This document shows positions 4,718 through 62,746 of a DNA stretch of 64,000 nt, in pieces (position 1 is the first letter of the stretch; each line of letters begins with the position of its first letter). The stretch is from Verrucomicrobia bacterium S94 (GTDB lineage: Bacteria; Verrucomicrobiota; Kiritimatiellia; Kiritimatiellales; Pontiellaceae): assembly GCA_004299845.1 (NCBI GenBank), contig CP036201.1, forward strand, positions 372,001-436,000, in the 5' to 3' direction. Below the pieces are notes generated by a model. The model was not told where the DNA came from. It ran no database searches and saw only the letters and a program-made list of their open reading frames with translations. The position numbers and the translations under genes are program-made.

Positions 4718-5656
4718 ATGATTAAGGTATCTGGGGTTACGAAAAAATATCCGGCGCGACTGGCGGTGGATAATATTTCGTTTGAAGTGGGCCGGGGAGA
4801 AATCGTCGGCTTTCTCGGTCCTAACGGGGCGGGGAAAACGACGACTATGCGTATGCTGACCGGCTACCTGCCTATGAATTCGGGGACCATTGAAGTCGCT
4901 GGATTTGATATTTCCAGGGAGCCGCAGGAGGTCCGCCGGCGGGTCGGGTATCTTCCGGAAAGCTGTCCGCTTTATCCTGAAATGCGGGTGGATGAATATC
5001 TGAAATTCCGCGCGTCGCTCAAAGGCGTTAAAACTTCGATTCGTCGGAGCAAGGTGAACGAAGTCAAGGAGCTGTGCGGACTTACAGAGGTTGGAAAGCG
5101 GATTATCGGTCAGCTTTCCAAAGGATACCGGCAGCGTGTGGGGCTGGCCGACAGCATGGTTCATGACCCGGATCTGCTGGTGCTGGATGAGCCGACGGTG
5201 GGACTGGACCCCTTTCAGATCCGGCAGGTCCGAGATCTGATCACTCATTTGGCGGAGCGGCATACGGTGCTGCTTTCCACCCATATTCTCCAGGAAGTGG
5301 AGGCGATCTGTGAACGGATCCTTATCATTAACGAAGGGCGGATTGTGGCGTCCGATACTGAGGAGAACCTGCATCGGCAGCTGCAGGCCTGTTCGATTAT
5401 TGAAATGGAGATCATGGCTGAAAAAGAAGCGGCGGTGGAGGCGGTGAGCCGACTGGATGGACTGGATGTGCGCAGTGCGAATGAGCTGGCCGACGGCTGG
5501 CTCTGGCTGGAAATCGAGGCTGATTCGGCAGCGATGCGTGTGGATCTCTATAATCTGGCGGTGGCCAGGGGCTGGGCTTTGCGTGAACTTTCGGAACAGC
5601 AGCATTCGCTGGAAGATACGTTTGTTCAGATTACGAGCAGGAAGGAGGGGAAATAA
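4718..5656 (+). CDS. ABC transporter ATPase, GldA-like
   Basis: Cytoplasmic ATPase of an ABC-2 type exporter. Walker A is GPNGAGKTT (residues 34-42), the signature LSKGYRQR begins near 133, Walker B LLVLDEPT near 152, and the H-loop STH follows; the 312-residue length with a C-terminal extension is usual for this class. It starts the operon ATPase / ABC-2 permease / GldG-like / DUF4340, an arrangement known from Bacteroidetes gliding genes gldA-gldF-gldG and from many non-gliding PVC bacteria. The stop overlaps the permease start (TAATG). Transported substrate unknown; gliding should not be assumed because no other gld or spr genes are seen here. Confidence 0.88.
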   Translation: MIKVSGVTKKYPARLAVDNISFEVGRGEIVGFLGPNGAGKTTTMRMLTGYLPMNSGTIEVAGFDISREPQEVRRRVGYLPESCPLYPEMRVDEYLKFRASLKGVKTSIRRSKVNEVKELCGLTEVGKRIIGQLSKGYRQRVGLADSMVHDPDLLVLDEPTVGLDPFQIRQVRDLITHLAERHTVLLSTHILQEVEAICERILIINEGRIVASDTEENLHRQLQACSIIEMEIMAEKEAAVEAVSRLDGLDVRSANELADGWLWLEIEADSAAMRVDLYNLAVARGWALRELSEQQHSLEDTFVQITSRKEGK

Positions 5657-6408
5657 TGAGTGTCTTTCTCTGCTTATTGAAGAAAGAACTGCGTACGTGT
5701 TTTTATTCTCCGATTGCCTATGTGGTGATGTTTTTTTTCTGGATTCTGACCGGCGGCAACTTTTACTGGCTTCTGATTAATCTGGCGCACGGGGAATCGC
5801 TGACTACGGCTTCGCAATGGATGTTCAGCGGTTTTGTGCTGCCGTTTGCGATTCCGGTGATTGTTCCGCTGATTACGATGCGTCTTTTTGCCGAGGAGCG
5901 TAAACTGGGTACACTGGAGGCGTTGCTGACCACTTCGGTGAAGGTCCCCGAACTGGTGCTGGCAAAATTTTTCGGAGCATTGGTTTTTTATATCGTATTG
6001 TGGCTTCCCTCAATAGCTTATACTTATTTTCAGATCAAAACGGCACCTGCTGAGGTGACGGGATTTCCGGACCTGGGTGCACTGCAGGCGGGTGCGTTGG
6101 GTGTCATCCTGGTGGGTGCGCTTTACATTGCGATTGGTTTGTTTATGTCCACATTGACTTCGAATCAGATTGTTGCGGCGATCAGCGGGTTCGCGATTCT
6201 GATCGGATCGCTGTTTGTGTCGATGTATATGGCCTACACGGCGCAGAGTCAGAGTATCCGGATTGTCGGACAGTATTATTCTTCGTTTGCTCACATGATG
6301 GAATTTTCGCGCGGTATTGTGGACAGCCGGGTGGTGGTGATGTATCTGAGTCATGCTGCGTGGTTCCTGTTTGCTGCAGTACGCGTGGTGGAAGGTCGAC
6401 GGGTTTAG
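5656..6408 (+). CDS. ABC-2 type permease, GldF-like
   Basis: Integral membrane subunit of 250 residues with about six hydrophobic segments. The N-terminal LLKKELRTCFYSPIAYVV and the PLITMRLFAEERKLGTLEALLTTSV segment are typical of ABC-2 permeases partnering GldA-type ATPases. The start overlaps the ATPase stop by one base and the next gene begins 10 bases after the stop, so all three should be made together. Substrate unknown. Confidence 0.87.
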   Translation: MSVFLCLLKKELRTCFYSPIAYVVMFFFWILTGGNFYWLLINLAHGESLTTASQWMFSGFVLPFAIPVIVPLITMRLFAEERKLGTLEALLTTSVKVPELVLAKFFGALVFYIVLWLPSIAYTYFQIKTAPAEVTGFPDLGALQAGALGVILVGALYIAIGLFMSTLTSNQIVAAISGFAILIGSLFVSMYMAYTAQSQSIRIVGQYYSSFAHMMEFSRGIVDSRVVVMYLSHAAWFLFAAVRVVEGRRV

Positions 6409-38636: not shown

Positions 38637-40841
38637 ATGAGTTATTATGCGCACAGCAACGACGGACCGCCCTCCGGCTGGCAGCCGCTGGAGGAGCATC
38701 TGAAAAATGTTGCCGACCGGGCTGCTGAATTCGCCAAACCCTTCGGCGGCGAGGAGTGGGCGAGACTCGCCGGACTCTGGCATGATTTAGGGAAATACCA
38801 TCCCGACTTCCAGCGTAAGCTGAAGGGGGAGAACATTCGTGTGGTGCATTCGGAAGCGGGTGGACATTTGGCAATGCTGAAAAAGTGGCGTGGAGTGGAT
38901 GTCATTCTCTCTTGGCTGATTATGGGGCATCATGCGGGCTTGGCGGATTATTCTTCTGCGGAAACGGGTGCAAAAGGACTGGAGTCTAAAATGCGAGATC
39001 CACATCGCTCGGATATTGTGTTGAATCAAGTTCCCGAATCCATTTCCAACCAGATACCGCCGGCCAACCCTTCTATGTTTGAGAATCGAGTATTGCCCCC
39101 GGATCAGGCTTTTTTGATTCGTATGCTCTATTCCTGCCTCGTAGACGCCGATTTTCTCGATACGGAAGTGTTCATGGATGCATCGCGCAAGGCCGCGCGC
39201 CCAAATGATTCGCCGAGTATGGATGCGTTATTAGTCTGTTTTGACGCGCATATGGCACGATTCGAAGGAGCGGAAGGTGCGGTGAATCAATGCCGGGCGC
39301 AGGTGTTGGCACAGTGCCGTACGGCTGCTGAGCAAGCGGGGACATTTTCGTTAACGGTTCCGACGGGTGGCGGAAAGACGCTTGCGTCGCTGGCATTTGC
39401 GTTGCGGCACGCGGTGGAGCATCAAAAGCGTCGCATTATTTATGTGATTCCCTACACGAGTATCATTGAGCAAACCGCCGAAGTGTTTCGTTCAATTCCT
39501 GGTTTCGAGGATGTCGTACTGGAACATCATTCGAATCTGGTTTTTGATGACGATCAGGAAATCGCGGAAAAACGCGCACGACTCGCGATGGAAAACTGGG
39601 ATGCGCCCATTGTGGTGACGACGAATGTCCAGTTTTTCGAGTCATTGCATGCGAACCGCAGCAGCCGGTGTCGCAAATTGCATAACATTGCAAACAGTGT
39701 GGTGATTTTTGATGAAGCACAATGTTTGCCTCCCGCATTTCTGCGACCCTGTGTGTTCGCGATTCGAGAATTAGCTCGGCATTACGGTGTCACGCCTGTG
39801 CTTTGCACCGCAACGCAGCCCGTCCTTACAGAAACTAAATCGTTCGATTTTGAATTTACTGAAGGTTTTGATCAGGTCACTGAAATTATCGACAAACCGA
39901 ATGCGTTGAGTCAGCAACTTGCGCGCGTTCAGGTGGAAGTGCTCAATGAATTGAACCCGATTGATCTTGCTACACTGGCTGATCAGTTAGAGTCGGAATG
40001 CAGTTCGTTACTCTGCATTGTAAACCGCAAGGCTGATGCGCGGACACTTGCCGAGCTGCTTCCCGGGGAAAATACCATTCAGCTTTCGACCAACCTTTGC
40101 GCGGCCCACCGGTTCGAGGTGCTGGCGGAGATTCGCCAACGGTTGAAGTGCGGTGAGTACCTGTTGGTGATCAGCACGTCATTGGTCGAAGCGGGGGTTG
40201 ATCTTGATTTCCCGGTGGTCTACCGTGCATTGGCCGGCCTCGACTCCATTGCTCAAGCCGCCGGACGATGCAATCGCGAAGGAAAGCTGAAAATGGGCCG
40301 CACGGTCGTTTTTATGCCCGGAAAACAGCCCGACTACGTAAAGCCCGCCGCATCGCTCGCGCTGAACTACTTGAAACCCGACCGCTTGAACCGCATCTTT
40401 TTGCCGGAAACATTCCGCTCCTATTTCAAGCAATACTTTTTTATGAAAGGGACGCAGGCGCTCGATCAAAAAGGCATCCGTGAGCTCTTACCGAATGAGA
40501 CAACCGCGATCCGCTTCCAGACCGCGGCTGAACGGTTCCATCTCATTGATTCCGATTGGCAGCTTCCCGTCATTATGCCTTTCCGCGAAGCGGTGGGGTT
40601 GGTCGATCGGCTTTTGTCTCACCAATGGGAGGCCAAAGCCATCTGCCGAAAACTGCAACGCTATACCGTCAACATTTCCAAGCGCGTGGTGGATCAATTG
40701 GTGGATCAGGATTACGCGCGGCCCGTGGAAGGGTTTGAGGGAATGATTTTTCTGCACACCAAGCAACTCTACGACGAACGTTTCGGCTTTATTCCACCCG
40801 ACTCGATTGAGGCGTTTGATCCTGAAACCAATATTATTTAG
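38637..40841 (+). CDS. cas3: CRISPR-associated helicase/nuclease Cas3 (type I-C)
   Basis: 734 residues, HD nuclease fused to a superfamily 2 helicase. The HD domain has LAGLWHDLGKYHPDFQ (H49, D50), HSEAGGHL and MGHHAGLAD. Helicase motif I VPTGGGKTLASLAF begins near residue 240, motif II is DEAQ (about 358) and motif VI QAAGRCNREGK (about 539). Cas3 is recruited by Cascade at a bound target and degrades the DNA in single strands. First gene of the operon; cas5c follows after 11 bases. No frameshift or missing catalytic residue. Confidence 0.97.
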   Translation: MSYYAHSNDGPPSGWQPLEEHLKNVADRAAEFAKPFGGEEWARLAGLWHDLGKYHPDFQRKLKGENIRVVHSEAGGHLAMLKKWRGVDVILSWLIMGHHAGLADYSSAETGAKGLESKMRDPHRSDIVLNQVPESISNQIPPANPSMFENRVLPPDQAFLIRMLYSCLVDADFLDTEVFMDASRKAARPNDSPSMDALLVCFDAHMARFEGAEGAVNQCRAQVLAQCRTAAEQAGTFSLTVPTGGGKTLASLAFALRHAVEHQKRRIIYVIPYTSIIEQTAEVFRSIPGFEDVVLEHHSNLVFDDDQEIAEKRARLAMENWDAPIVVTTNVQFFESLHANRSSRCRKLHNIANSVVIFDEAQCLPPAFLRPCVFAIRELARHYGVTPVLCTATQPVLTETKSFDFEFTEGFDQVTEIIDKPNALSQQLARVQVEVLNELNPIDLATLADQLESECSSLLCIVNRKADARTLAELLPGENTIQLSTNLCAAHRFEVLAEIRQRLKCGEYLLVISTSLVEAGVDLDFPVVYRALAGLDSIAQAAGRCNREGKLKMGRTVVFMPGKQPDYVKPAASLALNYLKPDRLNRIFLPETFRSYFKQYFFMKGTQALDQKGIRELLPNETTAIRFQTAAERFHLIDSDWQLPVIMPFREAVGLVDRLLSHQWEAKAICRKLQRYTVNISKRVVDQLVDQDYARPVEGFEGMIFLHTKQLYDERFGFIPPDSIEAFDPETNII

Positions 40842-40852
40842 GAGAAATGACG

Positions 40853-41515
40853 ATGAAGAAAAGTAAACCCTTCCGGTTGCGAGTGAGCGGCGAAAACGCC
40901 TGCTTCACCCGCCCGGAAATGAAAGTGGAACGCGTGTCGTATGATGTGATTACGCCATCGGCGGCGCGCGGTATTTTCGAAGCGATTCTGTGGAAGCCCG
41001 CGATCCAGTGGAATATTCGGCAGATCGATGTGCTTAAACCGGTGAAGTGGGAATCGGTGCGGCGCAATGAAGTGGGAAAAAAGATGGGTAAGCCCTCAGC
41101 GGCTCATATGACGGGCGGACGGCATAAGCCGTTGGAACTCAGTGTTGAAAAGGAGCGCCAGCAACGCGCAGGCCTTTTTCTGAAACATGTTGAATATGTG
41201 CTTCATGCTGACTTTGAAATGACTGCAAAGGCAGGCGCTGACGATACGGTGACTAAATTCGAGCAGATGTTTTTGCGGCGGGCGTTGCAGGGCCAATGTT
41301 TTCAACAGCCCTATTTCGGATGTCGCGAATTTCCGGTCGACTTCGAATTGATTGGGTTGAAGGATGAACTGCCTGAGCCAATTCAGGAAACACGCGATTT
41401 GGGGTGGATGCTCTATGATTTGGATTATCGCGGAAAAGAGCCGATGCCTCAGTTCTTTCATGCACAACTTGTGAACGGATCTCTGGATCTGCGGGATGTG
41501 GAGGTGCGGTCATGA
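40853..41515 (+). CDS. cas5: Cascade subunit Cas5c (Csd5/Cas5d), pre-crRNA endonuclease
   Basis: 220 residues. RLRVSGENACFTRPEMKVERVSYDVITPSAARGIFEAILWKP is the hallmark of type I-C Cas5, which replaces Cas6 as the repeat-cleaving RNase and holds the 5' handle of crRNA. No cas6 gene is present, as expected. Two ATG codons are possible; the second (40853) lies eight bases after GGAG and is preferred. The stop overlaps the cas8c start. Confidence 0.95.
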   Translation: MKKSKPFRLRVSGENACFTRPEMKVERVSYDVITPSAARGIFEAILWKPAIQWNIRQIDVLKPVKWESVRRNEVGKKMGKPSAAHMTGGRHKPLELSVEKERQQRAGLFLKHVEYVLHADFEMTAKAGADDTVTKFEQMFLRRALQGQCFQQPYFGCREFPVDFELIGLKDELPEPIQETRDLGWMLYDLDYRGKEPMPQFFHAQLVNGSLDLRDVEVRS

Positions 41516-43323
41516 TTCTGCAGGCGTTGGCTCAATATTACGATCGGCTGCTGCATGATCCGAACATCAATATCGCTCCTCTGGGGTTTGAGCAGAAGAA
41601 GATTGATTTTTTAATTCTGCTTACAGAAGAGGGGGCCTTCAGTGCTCTTTGGGATTTGCGGGAAGGAACTGGAAAAAAGAAGCAGGGCCGAATGACGCGT
41701 GTTCCAAAGGGCGTCAAGCGGACTGTCGGAGTCGAGGCGAATCTGTTATGGGACACTGCACCCTATGCGTTGGGCCATTTGTTGCGCTCCGATAAGAAAG
41801 CGAAGTTGGCCTATCGCGGCAAGGGCGCTGTAAAGCGGCTTGACCTCTCCAAATCCAAAAAAGAGCTGGCGAAGATGAAAGCGCGCCTGCCCAAACAATA
41901 CGCGGCTTTTGTTGAGAAAATTGAAAAAAACTTTGAATACTGTGACGACGCCGGCATTCGGGCGGTATTGGCTTTTTTGCGAATCGCGGAATTTGATGCA
42001 TTATTCGCACATCCGCTGTGGCAGGAAGTGGAAGCGAGTGGGGGAAATCTGACCTTCGCGCTTGAAGATGGTGAGATGATTTGTCAACGCCCGGCGGTGG
42101 TTCGGTCGATTGTTGAGCAGGCGAAACCGTCTACAGGCGGGCAGGTGTGTGCCGTGCGGGGCGAACCCGATGAACTGGCGGAGTTGCATACGGCCATCAA
42201 AGGGGTGTGGGGCGCACAATCATCCGGAGCCAACATTGTTTCGTTCAATTTGGATGCCGTGAGTTCGTTCGGGAAAAAGCAGGGGCATAATGCACCGATA
42301 GGGAAGCAGGCGGAATTTGCCTATACCACTGCGCTTAATTATCTGTTGGCGAGCGACCGGCAGCGGATGCAGGTGGGCGACGCAAGTACCGTTTTCTGGG
42401 CAAGAGATCCCTCGGATTTCGAACAGACCTTTATTTCCTGTTTTGAACAGCCCAAAAAAGGCGAAGAAGCAGTGAAGTACGATAAAATCCGTTCCCTGCT
42501 TCGTTCAGTCAAAAGCGGTGTTCCGGCGGAGGATGAGACGCATCCCTTTTATGTATTGGGTCTCGCTCCCAATGCAGCTCGTATTTCGATTCGGTTTTGG
42601 TATGAAGGTAATTTGAAGCAGATCAAAGAGCGCGTGGCTCGTTTCTTCGAAGAAATTGAAATGGTTCGATCTAAACGGGATCCCGAGTTTCTTTCACTCT
42701 TACAACTGCTCAGCTCCACCGCTATGGAAGGGAAGATCGATAATCTGCCGCCGAATATTGCAGGTGATTTTGCGCGTGCAGTTTTCATGGGTGGAAATTA
42801 TCCGCGTACGCTGCTTTCGAACGCGGTTCGACGCTGCAAGGCGGAGCAGCGCGTTACATACGCACGGGTTTCAATCATTAAGGCGTGTTTAGTACGAAAC
42901 GCGCAGTTTTCAAATTTAACTAACCAGGAGGTCTCAGTGGCATTGGATAAAACATATGACGACATGGGCTATGTGTTGGGGCGCTTATTTGCTGTGCTCG
43001 AACGTATTCAGGAGAAAGCGCAACCGGGGATTAATAAAACGATTCGGGATACCTATTTCGGCGCCGCGACCAGTTCTCCGCAGATCACATTTAAACGATT
43101 GGATGAACTGTCGATTCATCATCTCGCGAAGATTCGTAACGGCGGGCAGCCCATTGTGTGGTACGAGCGTTTGAAGCAGGAAGTTTACGCCCTGATTCCC
43201 GCATCAGGAATCCGTAACCAGTTGACCCTGGAGGAGCAGGCCCGTTTTGCGGTGGGCTACTATCACCAGCGGCAGGATTTTTTTAAAGGTAAAGAAACAG
43301 AAGAGACAGGAGAAGAAGTATGA
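41512..43323 (+). CDS. cas8c: Cascade large subunit Cas8c (Csd1)
   Basis: 603 residues, normal for Csd1. Recognised from position and blocks such as [31 protein letters not shown] and the [20 protein letters not shown] stretch near the C-terminus. Cas8c binds the PAM and opens DNA; in type I-C its gene also contains an internal start that makes Cas11c, and an in-frame start around 42926-42940 after AGGAGG would fit that role here ([17 protein letters not shown]). Overlaps cas5 and cas7 by ATGA. Confidence 0.95.
42937..43323 (+). CDS. candidate internal translation product Cas11c within cas8c
   Basis: Inside cas8c, AGGAGG at 42927-42932 is followed by GTG at 42937, in frame with cas8c, giving a 128-residue C-terminal product. 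In type I-C systems a small Cas11 subunit is known to be made from an internal start in cas8c. The site here is strong in sequence but unproven. Confidence 0.5.
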
Positions 43324-44180
43324 GTGAATTGATTAAAAATAGGTATGAATTTGTACTGCTGTTTGACGTGAAAGACGGAAATCCTAATGGCGATCCGGAC
43401 GCGGGCAATCTGCCGCGCGTCGATCCGGAAACAGGCAATGGCCTGGTTACGGATGTTTGCCTGAAAAGAAAAGTACGCAACTATATTCAGCTGACGCAGG
43501 GCGATAAGCCGGAGATGAAAATCTTCATTAAGGAAAAGGGCATTCTCAATACGATGATCGATGCTGCGCATGAAGATGATTTCGTGGCAAATAAGGAAAA
43601 GGCGGGCGATAAAACCGAGGCGGCCCGTCTGTTCATGTGCAGAAACTATTTTGATGTCCGGACCTTTGGTGCCGTCATGAGCACCGGGAAGAATGCCGGA
43701 CAGGTGCGCGGCCCGGTTCAACTGGGATTTGCCCGCAGTAAGGATCGTATTTTTACCGGAGAGCACACCATCACACGCATGGCGGTTGCGACGGAGGCTG
43801 AGGCCGAAAAACAGAAGGGCGACAACCGAACCATGGGCCGCAAGTTTACCATTCCTTACGGCCTCTACGAAGTGCATGGCTTTATCTCTGCGCCGTTGGC
43901 GAAGCAGACCGGATTTTCCGAGGAGGACCTTGAACTGTTCTGGAATGCGCTGATTAATATGTTCGATCACGACCGCTCCGCCGCGCGGGGCGAGATGGCT
44001 CCCCAGAAGCTGATCGTTTTCAAGCACGCTTCCGAACTCGGCAATGCACCTGCGCAGAAGCTGTTTAATCTGGTGAAGGTGGAAAAGAACTGTGGCGAAA
44101 GACCGCCGCGTTCGTTTGCAGACTATGATGTGAAAATCGGTGAGGCACCCGAAGGCGTGGATCTGATTGAAATGCTGTGA
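43320..44180 (+). CDS. cas7: Cascade backbone subunit Cas7c (Csd2)
   Basis: 286 residues. [29 protein letters not shown] and [15 protein letters not shown] are diagnostic of Csd2; [13 protein letters not shown] and [10 protein letters not shown] follow. Multiple copies coat the crRNA. Start overlaps the cas8c stop and AGGAG lies just upstream. After its stop there is a 117-base gap with hairpins and repeats, unusual in this otherwise packed operon. Confidence 0.96.
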
Positions 44181-44297
44181 CGCCAGTCGTGCGGCTGGCG
44201 ATCTGAAATATAAAATTTGAAATCTGATATCCCGCTCGGCGGGTGTGAAATCTCAGATCTGAACGTTGAAATCCCATAAAGCGGGGTGGAGCGACTG
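44181..44297 (+). repeat. cas7/four-helix gene gap with hairpins and CAGATTT-type repeats
   Basis: Starts with a hairpin CGCCAGTC-GTGC-GGCTGGCG directly after the cas7 stop (44181-44200), then TTTGAAATCTGAT, a small hairpin CCCGC-TCG-GCGGG (44231-44243), TGAAATCTCAGATCTGAA and TTGAAATCCC. The AAATCTCAGATTT theme recurs in the following gene and at the cas4/cas1 and cas1/cas2 junctions. Confidence 0.65.
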
Positions 44298-44807
44298 ATG
44301 AAATATGAGAATTTCGAGGATGTTCCGGTTTGGCGGGATGGAATCAAGTTGACGGTTAAGGTGTTTGAGGTGACGCGCGATTCATCCTTTCGCGGACAGG
44401 GGGATATTGCCAATCAGATTCAACGTGCGGCACTGTCGGTTCCGAATAATATTGCCGAAGGCTTCGAACGGGGCACGACGTCGGAGCTGTTGCAGTTTCT
44501 CTATTATGCCAAGGGATCTGCCGGGGAGGTGCGTTCGATCTGTCATGTCATCGAAAGAATTAAGGTCTTCGGCCATTTGAAATCTCAGATTTCAGATTTA
44601 AAATCGCTGGCGAGAAATATTTCTCGCCAGCTCGGCGGCTGGGCCTTTTCGCTGCAGGAGTCGGATATTAAGGGCACGCGGCATATGACGGAAAAGTCGA
44701 AGAGGATCTATCAGCAGAAAGACAAGGCGCAGGCATTTATGGCTGATTTAAAAAAACAGCACGAAGAGCGGTTGGAGCAAATGAAGCGGGAGCGGGGAGG
44801 GGGGTAA
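44298..44807 (+). CDS. four-helix-bundle (23S rRNA intervening-sequence type) protein embedded in the cas operon
   Basis: 169 residues. The first 110 match the small four-helix-bundle proteins known from 23S rRNA intervening sequences and related to the DGR accessory protein Avd: ENFEDVPVWRDGIKLTVKVFEVTR, IANQIQRAALSVPNNIAEGFERG, LLQFLYYAKGSAGEVRSICHV. After ISDLKSLARNISRQLGGWAF comes a charged tail (about 45 residues) not usual for the family. ATG at 44298 follows GGAG; the stop overlaps the cas4 start (TAATG), so the gene is coupled to cas4. Not a standard type I-C component. Repeats and a palindrome in and before the gene suggest it arrived as a cassette. Function unknown. Confidence 0.82.
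   Translation: MKYENFEDVPVWRDGIKLTVKVFEVTRDSSFRGQGDIANQIQRAALSVPNNIAEGFERGTTSELLQFLYYAKGSAGEVRSICHVIERIKVFGHLKSQISDLKSLARNISRQLGGWAFSLQESDIKGTRHMTEKSKRIYQQKDKAQAFMADLKKQHEERLEQMKRERGGG
44607..44630. repeat. 24-bp perfect palindrome inside the four-helix-bundle gene
   Basis: CTGGCGAGAAAT followed directly by its reverse complement ATTTCTCGCCAG. It follows AAATCTCAGATTTCAGATTT and is itself followed by CTCGGCGGCTGG, echoing the hairpin behind cas7. Confidence 0.8.
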
Positions 44808-45418
44808 TGTTTTCCGATTCCGATCTCCTCCCGCTCTCGGCGCTGCAGCATTTCATCTACTGTCCGCGCCAGTGTGCATTGATCCATCTGGAGCAGCAGT
44901 GGAAGGAAAACCGTTTTACGGCCGAGGGTCGTGCGCAGCATGATCGGGTGGATCGGCCGGAGCATGAAACTCGCGACGGTATCCGCTACGAATATGCTAC
45001 GTTGTTGCGTTCTCTGAAGCTGGGTCTCATTGGTAAGGCTGATGTGATTGAATTTCATGCCGACAAAGTCTATCCCGTTGAGCACAAACGCGGTCGCCCG
45101 AAACCGACGCATTGCGACTGGGTTCAGCTTTGTGCGCAGGCTCTCTGTCTGGAGGAAATGCTGGATGTGGAGATTCCGGAAGGCGCGATTTTCTACGGTC
45201 AGCCGCGTCGCAGACAGCCGGTGGAATTTACGCCGGAGCTGAGGAGCGAAACCGTGCAGACGGCAAAGGCGCTGCATGCGTTGATGGTGTCCGGGAAAAC
45301 ACCGCCTGCCGTATATGAAAAAAAGAAATGCGATGCCTGTTCGCTGTACGAAATCTGCATGCCGCAAGCGCATCGGCCTGTAGCAAGCTACTTGGCCAAT
45401 GCACTATCTCAAAGCTGA
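44807..45418 (+). CDS. cas4: CRISPR adaptation exonuclease Cas4
   Basis: 203 residues. LLPLSALQHFIYCPRQCALIHLEQ with C19 and the C-terminal CDACSLYEIC cluster should bind a [4Fe-4S] cluster. ADVIEF and YPVEHKRGRPK carry the RecB-type nuclease Asp, Glu and Lys. Cas4 trims prespacers and selects the PAM during spacer acquisition together with Cas1-Cas2. Preceded by a strong GGGAGGGGG ribosome-binding site inside the end of the four-helix gene. Confidence 0.96.
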   Translation: MFSDSDLLPLSALQHFIYCPRQCALIHLEQQWKENRFTAEGRAQHDRVDRPEHETRDGIRYEYATLLRSLKLGLIGKADVIEFHADKVYPVEHKRGRPKPTHCDWVQLCAQALCLEEMLDVEIPEGAIFYGQPRRRQPVEFTPELRSETVQTAKALHALMVSGKTPPAVYEKKKCDACSLYEICMPQAHRPVASYLANALSQS

Positions 45419-45448
45419 AATTTCATCTCTCAAATCGCCGGAGGCATC

Positions 45449-46471
45449 ATGAAAAAACATCTCAACACCCTCTACGTCACCACCCAGAATGCTTATCTGC
45501 ATAAAGAAGGGCAAAGTGTGGTGGTAAACGTGGAGAAAGAGGCCCGGTTGCGTATTCCGGTGCATACGCTCGATGGCATCGTCTGTTTCGGTGCGGTTTC
45601 GATGAGCCCTTTTCTGATGCATCACTGCGCGGAAAACCATGTGGCGGTTTCATTTCTTTCAGAATACGGGAAATTTCTGGCCCGTATTCAGGGTCCGGTT
45701 TCGGGCAACGTGCTGCTACGGCGTGAGCAATACCGTGTGGCCGATATTCCGGAACGGGCGGCAGATATTGCACGTCATATACTCATTGGAAAAATTGCCA
45801 ACGCCCGGGCTGTTCTTCGCCGTGCTATGCGGGATCATGGGGACAATCGGGAACTGAAAACCGCAGAATGCCGGACGACTCAGTATCTGCGCCGGTTGGA
45901 ATCGCCAATGTTGATAGAAGAGCTGCGTGGAAACGAAGGTGAAGCGGCGGCATCTTACTTTTCCGCTTTTCCGCAACTGGTTACCGTGAAGAGCGAGGCG
46001 TTTCAGTTCAGTGGACGCAATCGCCGGCCGCCGACGGATCCGGTCAATGCCATGCTTTCGTTTGCTTATACGCTGCTGGTGCATGACTGTCGTTCGGCGC
46101 TGGAAGGCGTCGGGCTCGATCCCTGTGTGGGCTTTCTGCACAGCGACCGTCCCGGTCGGCCCAGCCTTGCTCTGGACCTGATGGAGGAGTTTCGTGCCTT
46201 TCTGGCGGATCGGGTCGTGTTATCGCTCATCAACCGCCGTCAAATCCAGGCAAAAGACTTCAATGACTCCGCCGGCGGCGCGGTGACCATGTCCGATTCT
46301 GCCCGCAGAACCCTGCTCGGGGCCTGGCAGAAGCGGAAACAGGAAGAGATCACTCATCCTTATCTGGAGGAAAAATGCAAAATCGGACTGCTTCCGCATC
46401 TGCAGGCACAGCTCTTGGTCCGTTATCTGCGCGGAGACCTGGAAGCCTACCCGCCGTTTATCTGGCGATAA
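45449..46471 (+). CDS. cas1: CRISPR integrase Cas1 (type I-C)
   Basis: 340 residues. N-terminal beta domain (LNTLYVTTQNAYLHKEGQSVVV), then the helical catalytic domain with FSGRNRRPPTDPVNAMLSFAYTLL, VGFLHSDRPGRPSLALDLMEEFR and DRVVLSLINRRQI; the conserved Glu, His and Asp metal ligands are in place. Inserts new spacers at the leader end. A 30-base gap before it contains a GAAATTTCATCTCTCAAAT stretch of the local repeat family. Confidence 0.97.
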   Translation: MKKHLNTLYVTTQNAYLHKEGQSVVVNVEKEARLRIPVHTLDGIVCFGAVSMSPFLMHHCAENHVAVSFLSEYGKFLARIQGPVSGNVLLRREQYRVADIPERAADIARHILIGKIANARAVLRRAMRDHGDNRELKTAECRTTQYLRRLESPMLIEELRGNEGEAAASYFSAFPQLVTVKSEAFQFSGRNRRPPTDPVNAMLSFAYTLLVHDCRSALEGVGLDPCVGFLHSDRPGRPSLALDLMEEFRAFLADRVVLSLINRRQIQAKDFNDSAGGAVTMSDSARRTLLGAWQKRKQEEITHPYLEEKCKIGLLPHLQAQLLVRYLRGDLEAYPPFIWR

Positions 46472-46519
46472 AGAATATGAAAAATAAAATTTCAGATTTG
46501 AAACAACCCGGAGGGCCTT

Positions 46520-46813
46520 ATGCTTGTTCTTATCACCTACGATGTATCCACTCTCAATAAAGCCGGACAGCGGAGGCTTTCCCGGATCGCCAAAACCTGC
46601 CTCGACTACGGTCAGCGTGTCCAGAACTCTGTTTTTGAATGTCTGGTCGAACCCGCCCAGTGGACGTCGTTGCGGGCGGAACTTCTCAGACTCTACAGCC
46701 CTGAAGAGGATTCACTCCGGTTCTATTTTCTCGGGAAAAACTGGGAGAACAGAGTGGAACACCATGGCACCAAAGAAACGCTCAATCTGGAAAGCGGAAC
46801 ACTGATTATCTGA
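46520..46813 (+). CDS. cas2: CRISPR adaptation protein Cas2
   Basis: 97 residues. MLVLITYDVST with the conserved Asp, the ferredoxin-like fold, and RVQNSVFECLVEPAQW and LRFYFLG are typical of type I-C Cas2, the structural core of the Cas1-Cas2 integration complex. ATG preceded by CCCGGAGGGCC. The cas1/cas2 gap carries AAATTTCAGATTTGAAAC. Confidence 0.97.
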   Translation: MLVLITYDVSTLNKAGQRRLSRIAKTCLDYGQRVQNSVFECLVEPAQWTSLRAELLRLYSPEEDSLRFYFLGKNWENRVEHHGTKETLNLESGTLII

Positions 46814-46992
46814 TTGTGCGAACCTTAAGTTTACACTGAAATACCGGCAGGTTCGCCGAGGACATAATGCTTTTATTGTTAAGGTGTTGTGTGTTTTTGC
46901 TCTTTGAAATATGAATAGTTGAACTGTTTTGAGAAGACGTTCGCGGAAAACCGGATATCGACACCGGCGAATCAACAGGATAGAAAGAAACC
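46814..46992 (+). promoter_or_regulatory. CRISPR leader
   Basis: 179 bases between the cas2 stop and the first repeat, richer in A/T than its surroundings, containing TTTGCTCTTTGAAATATGAATAG-like T-rich stretches. It should hold the array promoter and the signals for spacer insertion. Orientation agrees with the conserved repeat end and the degenerate final repeat at the far side. Confidence 0.8.
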
Positions 46993-49900
46993 GTCGCGCC
47001 CCACGCGGGGCGCGTGGATTGAAACAAACAGCATGTGCTTGACCATCGTGCGGTTGAGTCGCGCCCCACGCGGGGCGCGTGGATTGAAACCAGCGGCGGG
47101 ATGGATAGACGCTCCGTCGGCAAGTCGCGCCCCACGCGGGGCGCGTGGATTGAAACACCGCTACACCGTTCTGACAAAACACCTGAAGTGTCGCGCCCCA
47201 CGCGGGGCGCGTGGATTGAAACAAGTACCGGATGGAATTTGAAGAGTTCGTGCCGGGTCGCGCCCCACGCGGGGCGCGTGGATTGAAACAACGTCACCGA
47301 TGAAAAACGAACCATTGAGACCGTCGCGCCCCACGCGGGGCGCGTGGATTGAAACATCTGGCGCATGCGCTGTATACCGAGTCCGGGGTGTCGCGCCCCA
47401 CGCGGGGCGCGTGGATTGAAACGATACCATGCCGGCCGAAGCCGTTAACCCTTATGTCGCGCCCCACGCGGGGCGCGTGGATTGAAACCGGTTATGTATC
47501 TGACAGAACTATATACGAAATGTCGCGCCCCACGCGGGGCGCGTGGATTGAAACATGTATATATCGAGCTGCAGGATGAAGCGGGCAAGTCGCGCCCCAC
47601 GCGGGGCGCGTGGATTGAAACCTTCTGCTGCAGATTGGTTCCATCAGTAAACGGTAAGTCGCGCCCCACGCGGGGCGCGTGGATTGAAACCCATGCCGCT
47701 GACACCGAGGGCATGATCGTTTAGTCGCGCCCCACGCGGGGCGCGTGGATTGAAACTGTATCGAAAATACTGCTGTACTCGTTTGAAACGGTCGCGCCCC
47801 ACGCGGGGCGCGTGGATTGAAACCCACAAAATGCTAAGTGTCTTTGCTGCCATGTTAGTCGCGCCCCACGCGGGGCGCGTGGATTGAAACAAACGGTGCC
47901 TCAACCACGGAAACTATGTCTTCGGTCGCGCCCCACGCGGGGCGCGTGGATTGAAACAAGCGCATCTTCAACGCCATCGCAAACCGCAGTGGTCGCGCCC
48001 CACGCGGGGCGCGTGGATTGAAACCGCAGAACTTGCAGAAATGCAGGGCAAGCTTGACGTCGCGCCCCACGCGGGGCGCGTGGATTGAAACGTTGCACGC
48101 GGAACCGGCGACAATCAGGTTGTTGGTCGCGCCCCACGCGGGGCGCGTGGATTGAAACCGGAGCCGGTTGGCTCTAGGTATCCGATAACTCCGTCGCGCC
48201 CCACGCGGGGCGCGTGGATTGAAACTCTGCACCCGCGAAGTGCAGAAATCAATCAAAGAGTCGCGCCCCACGCGGGGCGCGTGGATTGAAACATAAAATG
48301 TACGCAATCAAAAATATCAGCTCCGTCGCGCCCCACGCGGGGCGCGTGGATTGAAACAACGTCTTTCACCGGCGCATACAGCCTGAATATGGTCGCGCCC
48401 CACGCGGGGCGCGTGGATTGAAACCGGCCAAAGGGCAAGGGGGAATATTCGTTAAGGAGTCGCGCCCCACGCGGGGCGCGTGGATTGAAACCGTCTGGGG
48501 CGGTTGGCGGATTTGACGTGGGCTGTCGCGCCCCACGCGGGGCGCGTGGATTGAAACCGTTATATACCCCGAATATTACAGCGTCTACGGCGTCGCGCCC
48601 CACGCGGGGCGCGTGGATTGAAACCGGACTGAACCGCGCCTGATAATGCGGATACAAGGTCGCGCCCCACGCGGGGCGCGTGGATTGAAACAGTGTCAGA
48701 CGTTAATGCAACCGATCCCGCCGGAAGTCGCGCCCCACGCGGGGCGCGTGGATTGAAACGTATGAAAACAGAAGAAATATTGACATTGATTTGTCGCGCC
48801 CCACGCGGGGCGCGTGGATTGAAACTCCCCGGCGTTCCCGTGGATTTGATTTTGCGGAAGTCGCGCCCCACGCGGGGCGCGTGGATTGAAACAAACGAAG
48901 ACCAGAAAGCGGAGGCGATTTATAAGGTCGCGCCCCACGCGGGGCGCGTGGATTGAAACGAGTATTACGAAGAATTTGAAAAATGGATGGTGAGTCGCGC
49001 CCCACGCGGGGCGCGTGGATTGAAACATTGTACTGCCGCTCAATTATCGCCCGGGCACCGTCGCGCCCCACGCGGGGCGCGTGGATTGAAACAGCTCGTC
49101 AAGTCCGTCACGGATCTCGGTCGCATGTCGCGCCCCACGCGGGGCGCGTGGATTGAAACACCTCAATCGCACCGTCATCACCGGCGCTGAAGTCGCGCCC
49201 CACGCGGGGCGCGTGGATTGAAACTGTTCCAGCAGCCAGGCATCAATGGCCGCCTGAGGTCGCGCCCCACGCGGGGCGCGTGGATTGAAACTCGCCGACA
49301 TGCTTGTTGTAATACCCGGCAATCGTCGCGCCCCACGCGGGGCGCGTGGATTGAAACCCGGCATCATGGTCCGTCGACGCCGAAGATGACGGTCGCGCCC
49401 CACGCGGGGCGCGTGGATTGAAACTAGATCGGCGAGGCGGCGGATTTCGTCGAGGATGGTCGCGCCCCACGCGGGGCGCGTGGATTGAAACAGCTTATCG
49501 GCGCAACAAATACGGGGCGTAAATTGTCGCGCCCCACGCGGGGCGCGTGGATTGAAACGGTAAAGGACTTATTAAATCCAATACCGGTACCAGTCGCGCC
49601 CCACGCGGGGCGCGTGGATTGAAACGTCGAGTTCGTCGCGCTCGATGCAGGACAGCGGGGTCGCGCCCCACGCGGGGCGCGTGGATTGAAACCGGTAATT
49701 TAAGCTCGTAATAATCGCCGGCCGGAGTCGCGCCCCACGCGGGGCGCGTGGATTGAAACCGATCGGCTCCAGCTGCTTGTGTATAATGTGCGGTCGCGCC
49801 CCACGCGGGGCGCGTGGATTGAAACATAACCGTCAGGCGGTTGCGGTGATCGATATAGTGTCGCGCCCCACGCGGGGCGCGTGGATTGAAACGACGGCGT

Positions 49901-50694
49901 CGTAGATACAGGTGAAGGTGATGGTGTCGCGCCCCACGCGGGGCGCGTGGATTGAAACGAGCACTGATCAGGATAGTCCTCAAGGTAACGTGTGTCGCGC
50001 CCCACGCGGGGCGCGTGGATTGAAACGTGTCCGCGCATCGTGACCAATGCAGGTTGTCTCGTCGCGCCCCACGCGGGGCGCGTGGATTGAAACTGAATCA
50101 TTTCTTCGGTCACATCATTCTCTTTCAGTCGCGCCCCACGCGGGGCGCGTGGATTGAAACGACAAAGTCGCCGAATCTGCCCGTAAGGCCGGGTCGCGCC
50201 CCACGCGGGGCGCGTGGATTGAAACATGCCCATTAAGAGTCAAATGATTGACCATAGACGTCGCGCCCCACGCGGGGCGCGTGGATTGAAACTGTTTCTT
50301 TTGCCGATCCAACCTCTCGCAAACATCGTCGCGCCCCACGCGGGGCGCGTGGATTGAAACGATTGGAGATTACAATGGCTGAATTAAGATGGGGTCGCGC
50401 CCCACGCGGGGCGCGTGGATTGAAACTGTGCCAGATACCACCGACTCCTTTTATCTCTGCGTCGCGCCCCACGCGGGGCGCGTGGATTGAAACCTGATGT
50501 TGCGGCGGCGACGGCGTCGGCCAGGTCGTCGCGCCCCACGCGGGGCGCGTGGATTGAAACCTGAACAACCGGCGGCGCATTGTTCGCGGCAGTTGTCGCG
50601 CCCCACGCGGGGCGCGTGGATTGAAACCTTTGGCCGGATCCGGCATTCCGGCGGTTGCGGCGTCGCGCCCCACGCGGGGCGCGTGGATTGAAAT
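46993..50694 (+). CRISPR. type I-C CRISPR array, 56 repeats and 55 spacers
   Basis: 33-base repeat starting GTCGCGCCCC and ending CGTGGATTGAAAC, with an internal perfect 8-bp stem CGCGCCCC-ACGC-GGGGCGCG. By direct reading I count 56 repeats with starts from 46993 to 50662 and an average period of 66.7 bases; spacers are about 32-36 bases. All repeats look identical except the last, which ends GAAAT instead of GAAAC, marking the old, leader-distal end. Identical repeats, intact cas genes and many different spacers suggest a working, long-used system. I saw no repeated spacer by eye; targets need a database search. Confidence 0.98.
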
Positions 50695-50776: not shown

Positions 50777-50814
50777 AGTGGTTGATTCAGATTCCGGGAA
50801 GGAAGGGTCGTGGT

Positions 50815-51708
50815 ATGAGTGAACATGAATTTTCGAGAGTGGCAGTTTTAAAGGGCGGGGTTTCGTCGGAGCGTGGGATTTCGCTGAAGTCGGGGGCGGC
50901 GATTGCGCAGGGGCTGCGTGATGGCGGGTATGATGTGACGGAGATTGATATTCAGTCTGAGGATTTTCAGATTCCGGATGGGATTGATGCGGTGTTTGTG
51001 GCGCTGCACGGCCGGTTTGGAGAGGATGGCGGTATTCAGCGGAAGCTGGTTGAAATGAAGGTGCCGTTTACGGGTTCGAGTGCGGAGTCGAGCCGTATTT
51101 CGTTTGATAAAATCCTGACGCGTAAGGTTCTGGAGCAGCATGGTGTTCCGGTGGCACCGGGTGAGGTGGTGACAACTTTAGAAGGATGGAAAACGGAGGT
51201 TCCTCTGGTGGTGAAACCGCCGCGGGAGGGTTCGAGTGTGGGGTGTCATCTGGTATTTGATGAGGCGGATCGGGAGGGGGCTTTTGCGGATGCGCGGCGG
51301 TTTTCGGATGAGGTGCTGGTGGAGACGTATATTCCGGGGCGTGAGTTGACCGTTGGGGTGGTGAACGGGCAGGTGCTTCCGGTGGTGGAGATTATTCCGG
51401 AGTCGGAGTGGTATGATTTTGAGGCGAAGTATGTAACGGGTGATACGCGTTATGTCTGCCCGGCGGAGCTGGGGGCGGAGATTACGACGGAGCTGCAGAC
51501 GCTGGCGTTGCGGACTTTCCGGGCATTGGGGGCGGATACGTTCGGGCGGGTGGATTTTCGGCTGTCGTCGGAAAACCGGCCGTATGTGCTGGAGCTGAAT
51601 GCGATTCCGGGGTTTACGGCGACGAGCCTGCTGCCGAAGGCGGCGGAGGTGGCCGGCATCGGTTTTTCCGAGCTTTGCTGTAGCATCATGGAGCGGGCTC
51701 ATCTATAG
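50815..51708 (+). CDS. ddl: D-alanine--D-alanine ligase
   Basis: Joins two D-Ala with ATP for peptidoglycan precursor synthesis. 297 residues: RVAVLKGGVSSERGISLKSG at the start, ALHGRFGEDGGIQ, KPPREGSSVG of the ATP-grasp fold, GRELTVGV, and FGRVDFR...YVLELNAIPGFT with the Mg-binding residues. The start at 50815 (MSEHEFSRV) is preferred over an upstream in-frame ATG because of GGAAGG and conservation. First intact gene of the division cluster; ftsQ follows at once. Confidence 0.96.
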   Translation: MSEHEFSRVAVLKGGVSSERGISLKSGAAIAQGLRDGGYDVTEIDIQSEDFQIPDGIDAVFVALHGRFGEDGGIQRKLVEMKVPFTGSSAESSRISFDKILTRKVLEQHGVPVAPGEVVTTLEGWKTEVPLVVKPPREGSSVGCHLVFDEADREGAFADARRFSDEVLVETYIPGRELTVGVVNGQVLPVVEIIPESEWYDFEAKYVTGDTRYVCPAELGAEITTELQTLALRTFRALGADTFGRVDFRLSSENRPYVLELNAIPGFTATSLLPKAAEVAGIGFSELCCSIMERAHL

Positions 51709-51737
51709 TGCCGGGATTGATTCAGGGGCTGGTTTAC

Positions 51738-52574
51738 ATGGCGGCGGTAAAGAAGAAAACAACACGGAAAAAAGCACATTATGTGCGGGCGAAAAAGCGC
51801 GGGGTGGATGGTGGAACCCGGGCGCGCCGTACCGTTTCGATTGTTTTTCTGTTATTGGTTGTCGGGGCGATCGGCTACGGTATTTTTTCAGGCTTTAAAT
51901 GGATCGGTTATAAGCTTTATGCGGGCAATCCGCGTTTTGAAATCCAGCATCTGGAGATCTCCAGCAATGGAAAGCTGAAGGAGGATTTTATCCGCGAAAC
52001 GACAGGACTTCGTGAGGGGATGAACCTTTGGGAGCTGACGTTCGGGGAGATTGAGGAGAAACTGCTGGGGGTTTCGCAGGTGGAGTCGGTCCGCCTTGAA
52101 CGTAAGCTGCCGCATACGCTGATTGTGGAGGTGAAGGAGCGCGTGGCTGTTGCCCGGATTGAAGGGGTTAAAAAGCGCGGGCTTCCGTTGCGTGTTGATC
52201 GCTATGGCTATATTATGCCGCCTTCGATAAAGTCTAAGGATCTGCCGCTGATCAAGGGACTTGATTCTGAACTTGTTATGGGAGAGCCGGTGGGGGTTAC
52301 CGATGTGGATACGGCGTTGAAAATTATCGGTACCTGTGAGAGCTCGGGTTATTTGAGGACTTATATCCGGATTGAGACGCTGGACCTGAAATATTCGGAC
52401 TTTATTGATATGCGGCTGCACGGGGATATCCGTGTGAGGATGCCGCGGTTTTCGCTTAAACCCAAACTGCAGAATCTGGCTACGATAATTAAAATCGCCA
52501 ATGGCCAGGGGCAGCGGGTGAAGGAAGTTGATTTAACGCTTGATTCGGCCAAAGTGCCGGTGACCTATTATTGA
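51738..52574 (+). CDS. ftsQ: cell division protein FtsQ
   Basis: 278 residues: basic cytoplasmic tail, one membrane segment (IVFLLLVVGAIGYGIF), then the POTRA domain (FEIQHLEISSNGKLKEDFIRETTG, GVSQVESVRLERKLPHTLIVEVKERVAVA) and the beta domain. Links cytoplasmic and periplasmic division proteins. Start at 51738 (MAAVKKKTTRKK); a GTG at 51708 overlapping the ddl stop is the alternative. Its place between ddl and ftsA supports the call. Confidence 0.9.
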   Translation: MAAVKKKTTRKKAHYVRAKKRGVDGGTRARRTVSIVFLLLVVGAIGYGIFSGFKWIGYKLYAGNPRFEIQHLEISSNGKLKEDFIRETTGLREGMNLWELTFGEIEEKLLGVSQVESVRLERKLPHTLIVEVKERVAVARIEGVKKRGLPLRVDRYGYIMPPSIKSKDLPLIKGLDSELVMGEPVGVTDVDTALKIIGTCESSGYLRTYIRIETLDLKYSDFIDMRLHGDIRVRMPRFSLKPKLQNLATIIKIANGQGQRVKEVDLTLDSAKVPVTYY

Positions 52575-52584
52575 CCGGTAAACG

Positions 52585-53811
52585 ATGGCTCTTGACGCAA
52601 CGGCAGTTCTGGAAATCGGTACAAGTACCGTTCGCACCATGGTGGGCGAGGTGCGGGATGATGATGTGGTGTCGATTATCGGCATCGGTGAAACGCAGGC
52701 GCGCGGTATCCGTAAGGGTGAGATTTATAACCGCGATGATGCGATCAAGTGTGTACGCAAAGCGATCAAAGCGGCCGAGGAAAACCGGCGTAAGAGTATT
52801 CATTCGATTATGCTGATCACCTCGGGAGGGCAGGCGATGGCCAAAAAGAGCACTGGTTTTCATCGACTGGTGGATCCGCTGGAGAACCGGCTGTCGGAAG
52901 TGGATGAGCACGATCTGGAAGAGGTTGTGGAAATCGCACGCAAGGTGGCGTTGCCGGATAACCGCATTAAGCTGCATACGTTGCAGCAGTATTTTCAGCT
53001 TGATGATACGGTTAATATCACCAATCCGATTGGTATGGCCGGCGAGGAACTACGGGTGGATATGCTCACGATCCATGCCAAACGCAGTGCTGTGGATAAT
53101 TTCCGTAAACTGGTGGACGACGCGCCGATAGCCTGCACCGATGCGGTGTTCAGCGGGCTGTGTGCTGCGATAGCGGTGGTGACCGAAGAGCAGAAAAAAG
53201 CCGGTGTTCTGGTTATAGATATCGGCGGCGGTACAACGGATTTTACATTGTATCATGACGGTTTCATTCAGGCGGCCGGTTCGTTTGCGGTGGGCGGAGA
53301 CCATGTGACCAACGATATTTCCGTAGGGCTGCAGATTCCGTTGGGGCAGGCGGAGCTGGTGAAACAGAAGGACGGCAGTGCGCTGACTAATCTGATGGAG
53401 CGGGATCATAATATTTCCATTCCTGCGGCGGCCCAGGGCTTCAGTGGGAAAATGGTGCGGGCGGTGACGCTGAATACGATCATTAATGCCCGTATGGAGG
53501 AGATTTTCACGTTGGTGAAGGAAGCGGTTGAAGTGCAGTCGCCCAATGTTCCGCTGAGTGCCGGCGTGCTGCTTACCGGTGGAGGTTCATTCCTGAACGG
53601 GGCGCGAGATTTGGGACAGAAGGTTTTTAATGTTCCCTGCACGCATGGGAAACCGTTCAATGTACATGGGCTTCCTTCGGCCAAGGATGCGCCGCTTTAT
53701 GCCTCGCATGTGGGGGCTATCCGTTATGCTGCATCACTTAACCGTCCTGTGGAAAAACGTTCGTTGGGACGAACGCTGCTGAACCTGTTCTGGGGAGGAA
53801 CTGATGAGTGA
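52585..53811 (+). CDS. ftsA: cell division protein FtsA
   Basis: 408 residues, actin-like ATPase that tethers FtsZ to the membrane. VLEIGTSTVRTMVGEV, VIDIGGGTTDFTLYHDG and LTGGGSFLNGARDL are the phosphate and adenosine motifs. The C-terminus SLGRTLLNLFWGG is a probable amphipathic membrane-targeting helix. Its stop lies eight bases inside the ftsZ gene, so the two are coupled. Confidence 0.95.
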   Translation: MALDATAVLEIGTSTVRTMVGEVRDDDVVSIIGIGETQARGIRKGEIYNRDDAIKCVRKAIKAAEENRRKSIHSIMLITSGGQAMAKKSTGFHRLVDPLENRLSEVDEHDLEEVVEIARKVALPDNRIKLHTLQQYFQLDDTVNITNPIGMAGEELRVDMLTIHAKRSAVDNFRKLVDDAPIACTDAVFSGLCAAIAVVTEEQKKAGVLVIDIGGGTTDFTLYHDGFIQAAGSFAVGGDHVTNDISVGLQIPLGQAELVKQKDGSALTNLMERDHNISIPAAAQGFSGKMVRAVTLNTIINARMEEIFTLVKEAVEVQSPNVPLSAGVLLTGGGSFLNGARDLGQKVFNVPCTHGKPFNVHGLPSAKDAPLYASHVGAIRYAASLNRPVEKRSLGRTLLNLFWGGTDE

Positions 53812-54951
53812 TCATATGACGGGACCGCATCGGGTCCCGGTTCCCAAGATGCTCGTGATGGGCGTGGGTAGCAGTGGAGCCCGGGCTGTGGCGGCTATGG
53901 TTGCTTTAAATCCGGAAATTCAGGCCGTTGCCATCGATACCGACACCAAGGTGCTGGATGCGCTGGGTATGTCGAATATGATCCATGTGGGTGCCACTAT
54001 TACGCGCGGGCTCAGTTCCGGCGGGGATGTGGAGCTGGGCCGACAATCAATTGAAAAGGATTCTTCCAATATCCGCAAACAGCTCAGGAAGGTTGATCTG
54101 CTTGTGATTGTGGCGGGCTGGGCGGCGGAACCGGATCCGGTGCGGTGCCGGTGATTACCCGTATTGCGCGCGAAGCCGGCGCTTTGGTCCTGACGATGGT
54201 AACCATGCCCTTCAAATTTGAAGGAGTGAAAATCCGCCGTATTGCAGAGGATACTCTGACGCGTATCCGAACACATTCAGATGCTATTATCCAGATTCAG
54301 AATGAGCGTCTAGTGAATCGTTCCGATGCGGAACTTCCGGTGGAACAGGCGTATGCCCGAAGCCATCAGGTGATGATGGATGGAATTTTTTCAATCAGCC
54401 GGCTGTTGAACTGTCGCGGCGTGGTGGGGCTGGATTTTGCGTGTATTCATACCATGTTGAGAAACTGCGACGGCTTCTGCCATTTTGCGAGTGCCGACAG
54501 TACCGGAGAGGGCCGGGCTGATGCGGTGGTGGAAGCGTTGACCACGCATCGTCTTCTGAATAAGGGACGCATGCTGGAGGCCGCAGAGGGTATTGTGATC
54601 GGGCTGACCGGAGGTACAGATCTGAAACTCGTAGAGGTCGATGGAATCCTTTCCAAACTGCAGGAAAAACTTCCGGACGGCGTGTGGATCAATTTCGGGG
54701 TGGCTATTGATCCGGCGTTTGAGGGCCGTCTTTCAGCTATTGTTCTGGTGGCTGAAACGTGGAAGGAGCCGCTGGTGGATACTCACCGTCAGCGGGACCT
54801 GTTCTATAGGAGCAGCAACCCGGCGCAGGGAGAACTCCTGCTGGAATCTACCGGAAAAGGGGAATTTATTCATACGGATCCGACCATTCACAATAACGAA
54901 GATCTGGATGTGCCTACCTACATTCGCAGGGATATCAAACTCCCCAGATAG
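53804..54951 (+). CDS. ftsZ: cell division protein FtsZ, divergent, with an apparent one-base frameshift
   Basis: Tubulin-like GTPase forming the division ring. The first frame ends at 54154 after LLVIVAG; the second runs from there to 54951. Adding one C at 54118 restores AGLGGGTGSGAVPVITRIARE, the tubulin signature, and yields about 382 residues. The C-terminus DVPTYIRRD resembles the conserved peptide that binds FtsA. Unusual features: the first nucleotide loop is GVGSSGARAV rather than GVGGGGxNAV, and the synergy loop is GLDFACIHTM rather than NxDFADxxTV, so the usual Asn and the second catalytic Asp are replaced by Gly and Cys. Being in the division cluster it is probably the working FtsZ, and the frameshift a sequencing error. 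Confidence 0.9.
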
Positions 54952-61811: not shown

Positions 61812-62746
61812 CTAAACAACGGGATTCAGCGTTTTCAGTTCTTCATAGAGTTTGCGGGTTTCCGGCATATCAATACCGGCCGCTTCAGCGGCGCGGATCG
61901 GGTTCCCGTAAATGGCTTCGATTTCCATGGGATTACCCCGGTCGAAGTCCAGTTTCATGCTGGGGGCATAGGGTTTCATTTTTTCAGTATTCTGCATCAT
62001 TTTGACCATGAATTCCGGCTCAATGGGCCGACATACCGCCTGGGCCGCCGCAGCGGTTTCATGCATCAGTTTTTCGCAGATCCGTCGTTTTTCGGGATCA
62101 TTCACCAGCTCGTCGGTCAGACAGTTGCAGGCCACCGACATGCCGTTGAAGGGAATATTCCAGATCAGCTTTTTCCAGCGGGCGAGGGCTAGGTCGGCAA
62201 CAGGCTGAGTGGAAATACCCGCTGAGCGAAGGTCTGCGTCAACCTCTGTCAACCGGGGGTAATCCCGCCCGGCGCTCCGTCGGCCCGGTATTCACCGAGT
62301 GTAATCATGCCGTAATCAAGGTGGTTGATATGTCCGGGGGCCACTTTGTTTGAACAGAGGAAACAGAGACCGCCCAGAATGCGTTCGTTGCCGACGATTT
62401 GCGCGATATCCTCTTCGCTGCCGAGTCCGTTCTGCAGAGTCAGCACCAAAGTGTGTTCTCCGACCACGTGGGGCAGAATCTGCTGCAACGCCGCGTTGGC
62501 CGTGGCTTTCAGCGCAATAATCACCACATTGCAGGGCGGCAGGTCTGCGGGGTCGTTATAGGCATGTACCTCGGGAAGCTCAAAACTGCCGTTCACGGAA
62601 TCCACCCTGAGTCCATGGTTTTTCACCTGATCATAGTCAGAATGAACAAGAAAATGAACGTCGAATCCGGCACGCTGAAGTAGACCGCCGTAGTAGCCGC
62701 CCACTGCGCCCGTTCCAATGATTGAAAACTGATTTTTCTTCTGCAT
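61812..62746 (-). CDS. panE: 2-dehydropantoate 2-reductase, with an apparent one-base frameshift
   Basis: Reduces ketopantoate to pantoate with NADPH for coenzyme A synthesis. The N-terminal part has the dinucleotide motif IGTGAVGGYYGGLLQRAG and LTLQNGLGSEEDI, and ends early at 62249. The C-terminal part (KKLIWNIPFNGMSVAC with the catalytic Lys, then the helical domain) continues in another frame to 61812. One extra base in the run at 62255-62259 (GGGGG on the plus strand) restores GITPRLTEVDADL, as expected. Full length about 311 residues, normal. Homologues also reduce other 2-oxo acids, so the symbol is by family. Confidence 0.87.

Follow-up and report, generated by a model that had tools for sequence, protein, structure and literature searches.

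The question raised by this locus is whether an FtsZ that has lost residues of its catalytic T7 (synergy) loop can still be the protein with which a bacterium divides and, if so, how it would turn over GTP. Arguments on whether division needs GTP hydrolysis and treadmilling by FtsZ have relied chiefly on point mutants of a small number of model species. The gene studied here lies in the division cluster of Verrucomicrobia bacterium S94 (Pontiellaceae, Kiritimatiellales), within a 64-kb stretch of genomic DNA that was analysed as a whole and is called the window below. Residue numbers follow E. coli FtsZ.

Organisation of the division cluster

The usual order ftsQ-ftsA-ftsZ is kept, with a putative ddl just before it. 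The relevant features of the window, with their coordinates, are the following:

50782..51708, + strand: ddl, putative D-alanine--D-alanine ligase, identified by sequence and position
51708..52574, + strand: ftsQ (PF08478, POTRA domain of FtsQ type)
52585..53811, + strand: ftsA, immediately 5' of ftsZ (PF14450, PF02491)
53804-54951, + strand: ftsZ, whole gene, open in two overlapping frames
53804..54154, + strand: first ftsZ ORF, N-terminal part with the GTP-binding loops G1-T3 (PF00091, 43.9 bits)
53861..53878, + strand: G1 loop, GVGSSG (canonical GVGGGG)
54109..54118, + strand: frame break of ftsZ, in the T4 loop
54145..54951, + strand: second ftsZ ORF, rest of the GTPase domain, T7 loop, C-terminal domain and C-terminal peptide (PF00091, PF12327)
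54427..54456, + strand: T7 loop, GLDFACIHTM
54901..54948, + strand: C-terminal peptide, DLDVPTYIRRDIKLPR, corresponding to the peptide with which FtsZ binds FtsA

The same gene order was found in a relative (L069) whose ddl counterpart is intact and whose FtsA is 96% identical. Directly 5' of ddl-ftsQ-ftsA-ftsZ, the window carries a CRISPR-Cas locus (38637-50673) of type I-C make-up (Cas3, Csd1/Cas8c, Cas1) with a long array (repeat GTCGCGCCCCACGCGGGGCGCGTGGATTGAAAC); a gene for a protein of the 23S rRNA intervening-sequence type (PF05635; 44298-44807, + strand) stands within the cas row, before Cas1. In L069, ddl-ftsQAZ adjoins the counterpart of the genes found here at 35.7-38.5 kb, CRISPR-Cas being absent between them.

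A one-base change of frame near 54116 leads from the first ftsZ ORF to the second; it falls midway along the GLGGGTGSGA loop, so that the T4 signature GGGTGSG spans the break. The first-pass annotation had let the altered region begin at 54111, a position that marks this break and not the T7 loop. The break is confined to this assembly: all relatives fetched have an unbroken frame there, and no usual slippery heptamer for a programmed frameshift at 54116 was seen by eye. Two other genes of the window are split in a similar way. The ketopantoate reductase gene (PanE/ApbA; 61812-62746, - strand) has a frame shift near 62250, likely an assembly error, and is intact in L069; the pyruvate phosphate dikinase gene (32290-35042, + strand) is broken near 33230 into two overlapping ORFs in different frames with complementary domains. 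Given three frame breaks in a single 64-kb window, the ftsZ break most likely reflects a base error in the assembly. The codons of ftsZ are under purifying selection on both sides of the break, with a dN/dS against the nearest relative of 0.10 before it and 0.06 after it (0.10-0.20 against other relatives, where computable).

Identity and copy number of the protein

The Tubulin/FtsZ GTPase domain (PF00091) is found above cut-off in both pieces and the FtsZ C-terminal domain (PF12327) in the second, and the intact protein of a relative (L022) contains both. In the majority of family relatives, L022 and L023 among them, the T4 signature reads GGGTGSG or GGGTGTG, and a C-terminal peptide with an IKLPR ending is kept across the family. 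The predicted structure of the L022 protein (mean pLDDT 83; lower, 71-80, around T7) has FtsZ as its closest solved folds, the first being M. tuberculosis FtsZ 1rlu (TM 0.91 by target, 2.5 A). The NCBIfam ftsZ model TIGR00065, with a cut-off of 295.2 bits, gives 140.3 and 54.9 bits for the two pieces and at most 214.6 within the family; this cut-off is passed in all 13 control genomes with FtsZ but in just 14 of the 145 phylum genomes. FtsZl1, FtsZl2 (PMC2875224) and TubZ-like proteins also belong to the FtsZ/tubulin superfamily but, unlike these, the window protein is a division-cluster orthologue with an FtsZ_C domain and not a side paralogue.

Searches of the single-contig 4.1 Mb genome with PF00091 (E up to 1) and TIGR00065 matched this gene and no second FtsZ or tubulin, so the earlier suggestion that another FtsZ does the work is unsupported. 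FtsW is present in the genome; ZapA and MinC were undetected by their Pfam models. A second, distant tubulin-like protein of about 370 aa, with the motif GGGTGNG, occurs in a few other genomes of the phylum (L066, L067 at 4887-5984, L068 and L248), the present genome being without it; it matches PF00091 weakly (30 bits, under the cut-off) and lacks the FtsZ_C domain.

Replaced residues of the T7 and G1 loops

Each read in its own frame, the two loops are as first annotated: GLDFACIHTM in the second ORF, with N207 replaced by Gly, D209 kept and D212 replaced by Cys, and GVGSSG in the first. When the protein is aligned with E. coli FtsZ and with about 210 FtsZ from the phylum, the motif is gap-free and has Gly at the N207 position, Asp at D209 and Cys at D212. 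In a profile of 34 sequences of the class set against FtsZ from the PDB, LDFA is matched to E. coli VDFA and B. subtilis LDFA, again with no gap (the canonical T7 loop outside the phylum being defined by the E. coli, B. subtilis and Klebsiella alignments and by PMC8936486). The canonical Asn and Asp at a shifted position are ruled out by the alignment and by the predicted structure, and the residue changes stand. Helix H8 of the L022 model begins right at the T7 motif, and the sole other N-x-D is NCDG, at the far end of this helix; its Asp, a candidate for compensation, was noted by eye in several clades. Since all 23 family relatives have Cys or Ser at 212, the codons there are neither chance nor error. 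Ser at position 21 of the G1 loop is likewise shared (22/22 family members); judged from sequence comparison, GVGSSG is less telling than the T7 change because G20 and G21 vary widely across the phylum.

Distribution in the family, class and phylum

The survey drew FtsZ from overlapping sets: 58 relatives, about 146 genomes from the class and 145 from the phylum. Measured against the pattern NxDFAD (Asn and two Asp), the family to which the organism belongs (n=23) has N207 in 0/23, D209 in 23/23 and D212 in 0/23, the last position being Cys in 16 and Ser in 7. R142, the water-bridging Arg, is lost in 20 of the 23 and replaced by Ile or Val (kept in 3/23); N24 and the guanine contact N/D186 never occur. 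E138 and N165 are kept throughout (23/23) and T108 in 22/23. The window FtsZ shares with canonical FtsZ (TIGR00065; E. coli, S. aureus, M. tuberculosis) the fold, GGGTGSG, D209, E138, N165, the C-terminal FtsA peptide and the ftsQ-ftsA-ftsZ order, and differs from it by the replacement of N207, D212, R142, N24 and N/D186 and by a score below the TIGR00065 cut-off.

The sister family of the order (n=14) has N207 in all members and D212 in 2/14. In this same family (f2: L034, L040, L045-L053, L059-L061), T108 is lost in 14/14 (13 Phe, 1 Leu) and GGGFGTG stands in place of GGGTGTG, a change within the FtsZ signature itself. D212 is kept in 77 of 118 FtsZ from the other families of the class (D209 in 87) and in 13/59 from the other classes of the phylum (D209 in 43/60). 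A family represented by L223, L226 and L213 (f50) has an extremely divergent FtsZ, matched in its N-terminal half only (E ~1e-17 to 1e-20), in which the T7 region is unalignable. On an FtsZ tree built without the T7 columns, a minimum of 17 changes is needed at position 212 and 18 at position 209; together with the spread over family and phylum, this indicates that the loss is old and recurrent and not a private oddity. The framing of the first-pass annotation, which treated the T7 change as a feature of one organism, is therefore too narrow: the whole family has the change, and losses of a related kind appear repeatedly across the phylum.

Divergence of verrucomicrobial FtsZ has been described: its gene shows accelerated evolution (PMC2474590), and the protein counts among the most divergent FtsZ of bacteria (PMC9871819, PMC12283558). 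The FtsZ of Verrucomicrobium spinosum and Prosthecobacter resemble the present one in belonging to this divergent and fast-evolving phylum set (PMC12283558, PMC2474590), many members of which are without D212; V. spinosum FtsZ, compared here by its published description, differs in that it was called canonical in 2007 (PMC1845146). Its gene is essential (PMC12283558). The literature searched, which does not extend to Pilhofer et al. 2008 (Lentisphaera FtsZ), does not name a loss of catalytic T7 residues for this phylum, and priority is not certain.

Possible tendency to keep one T7 acid

Among 213 FtsZ, 58 have both acids, 108 only that at 209, 40 only that at 212 and 7 neither. The two losses avoid each other in raw counts (Fisher p 6e-10) and by family (p 0.012). 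A correlated-evolution test gave p 0.0009-0.013 when Asp or Glu was counted and p 0.21 with Asp only, and an independent-pairs test had too few informative pairs. Mutual avoidance of D209 and D212 loss may thus be taken as a lead. Co-loss of R142 and D212 was also considered and was rejected: the association (p 0.00016 overall) has p 1.0 outside the two families of this order and so reflects shared ancestry.

Proposed function of the pared-down FtsZ

In S. aureus FtsZ, D210 (equivalent to D209) swings and places the attacking water, D213 (D212) stays put and is tied by a water to R143 (E. coli R142), and N208 (N207) binds the K+ and the Mg2+ solvent shell; the gamma-phosphate site is reached by both D213 and R143, residues at the filament interface include the equivalents of N207, D212 and R142, and each of N208L, D213N and R143Q abolishes assembly (PMC8936486). 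For E. coli FtsZ, D212A retains about 7% of the GTPase (PMC8142252), forms rings in cells and, with extra FtsA, completes septa (PMC4383033); D212G, with a GTPase reported as <1%, forms static vortices (PMC7320174) and requires a suppressor to complement an ftsZ null (PMC5405962). These mutants have lost the identical residue but are laboratory point mutants of an otherwise canonical protein, whereas the window FtsZ is a natural state in which N207 and R142 are lost too.

We consider it somewhat better than an even bet that this protein is the sole, working divisome FtsZ of a Pontiellaceae-type member of the Kiritimatiellales, with a pared-down hydrolysis centre and slowed GTP turnover. The parts kept are the GGGTGSG pocket signature, the swinging catalytic D209, the FtsZ fold and the FtsA C-terminal peptide; those replaced are the K+-site N207 (by Gly), the second T7 acid D212 (by Cys or Ser) and R142, which reaches D212 via water (by Ile or Val). 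Such a protein would bind GTP and assemble into FtsA-tethered filaments, GTP would be hydrolysed slowly, via D209 alone, and the resulting slow filament turnover would be enough for division in these bacteria. Slow, D209-dependent hydrolysis best explains a family that is without N207 and D212, mostly without R142, and always with D209. Also in favour of this reading are the single copy, the low dN/dS, the predicted fold, the kept gene order and the presence of FtsW, the swinging D209 equivalent of S. aureus FtsZ, the E. coli D212A and D212G mutants, which form rings or vortices although their GTPase is low, and the binary fission seen in Pontiella agarivorans (PMC10880615). Of the readings first offered, "slow or different GTP turnover" is the best supported. 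Some published work counts against it, namely the single S. aureus changes and the non-complementation by D212G: as single changes abolish assembly in S. aureus, the three jointly might prevent GTP-driven filaments unless they are compensated.

In a rather unlikely alternative, the active site has been rebuilt: a normal GTPase rate would be restored by a partner protein or by other residues (Cys/Ser 212, His/Gln 214, the NCDG Asp), and the protein would behave as an ordinary FtsZ does. A positive role for the unusual LDFACIHTMLRNCDGFCHFA stretch is suggested by its near-invariance among family members, and the apparent mutual avoidance of D209 and D212 loss looks as if some catalysis were kept. 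However, the T7 loop has gained no new acid, NCDG sits at the far H8 end in the model, and the equivalents of both S. aureus residues that reach the gamma-phosphate site, D213 and R143 (PMC8936486), are lost here. A little less probable again is a hydrolysis-dead, static FtsZ, whose GTP-assembled filaments would provide FtsA and septal synthesis with a stable scaffold and be turned over by other means; the static vortices and the GTPase of <1% reported in earlier work for E. coli D212G (PMC7320174) and the failure to find MinC in this genome are in line with it, but the water-positioning D209, kept in 23/23 family members, would be unexpected if hydrolysis were unneeded. The last alternative, a very improbable one, is that this lineage has an FtsZ in decay or without function and that the frame break is a real inactivating mutation: the broken frame, the altered T7 and G1 loops and the lack of polymerisation of a thaumarchaeal FtsZ without T7 motif (PMC3684127) would fit, but the relatives have unbroken frames, dN/dS is low before and after the break, the two other frame-split conserved genes of the window are a mark of sequence errors, and the genome holds no replacement FtsZ.

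Significance for division in the phylum

We prefer, then, a sole FtsZ working with slowed turnover, and the residue losses behind this reading extend beyond one genome. Pontiella sulfatireligans (L010) carries the T7 change, and Pontiella agarivorans, a member of the same genus in which binary fission has been observed (PMC10880615), presumably shares it. More broadly, we tentatively suggest, at less than even confidence, that division in Verrucomicrobiota relies on a sole FtsZ in which often just one T7 acid (either of the two) is left and which, in this family, also lacks the Asn of the K+ site and the Arg at the gamma-phosphate, so that canonical FtsZ GTP turnover would be no general need or catalysis would have been rebuilt around a single acid. 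To our knowledge, the neighbouring Planctomycetota and Chlamydiota are without FtsZ, and the survey may bear on how FtsZ became dispensable there. It provides a natural set of sole FtsZ with repeated loss of catalytic residues, and because cultured members such as P. sulfatireligans are among the loci, the need for hydrolysis and treadmilling in division is directly testable.
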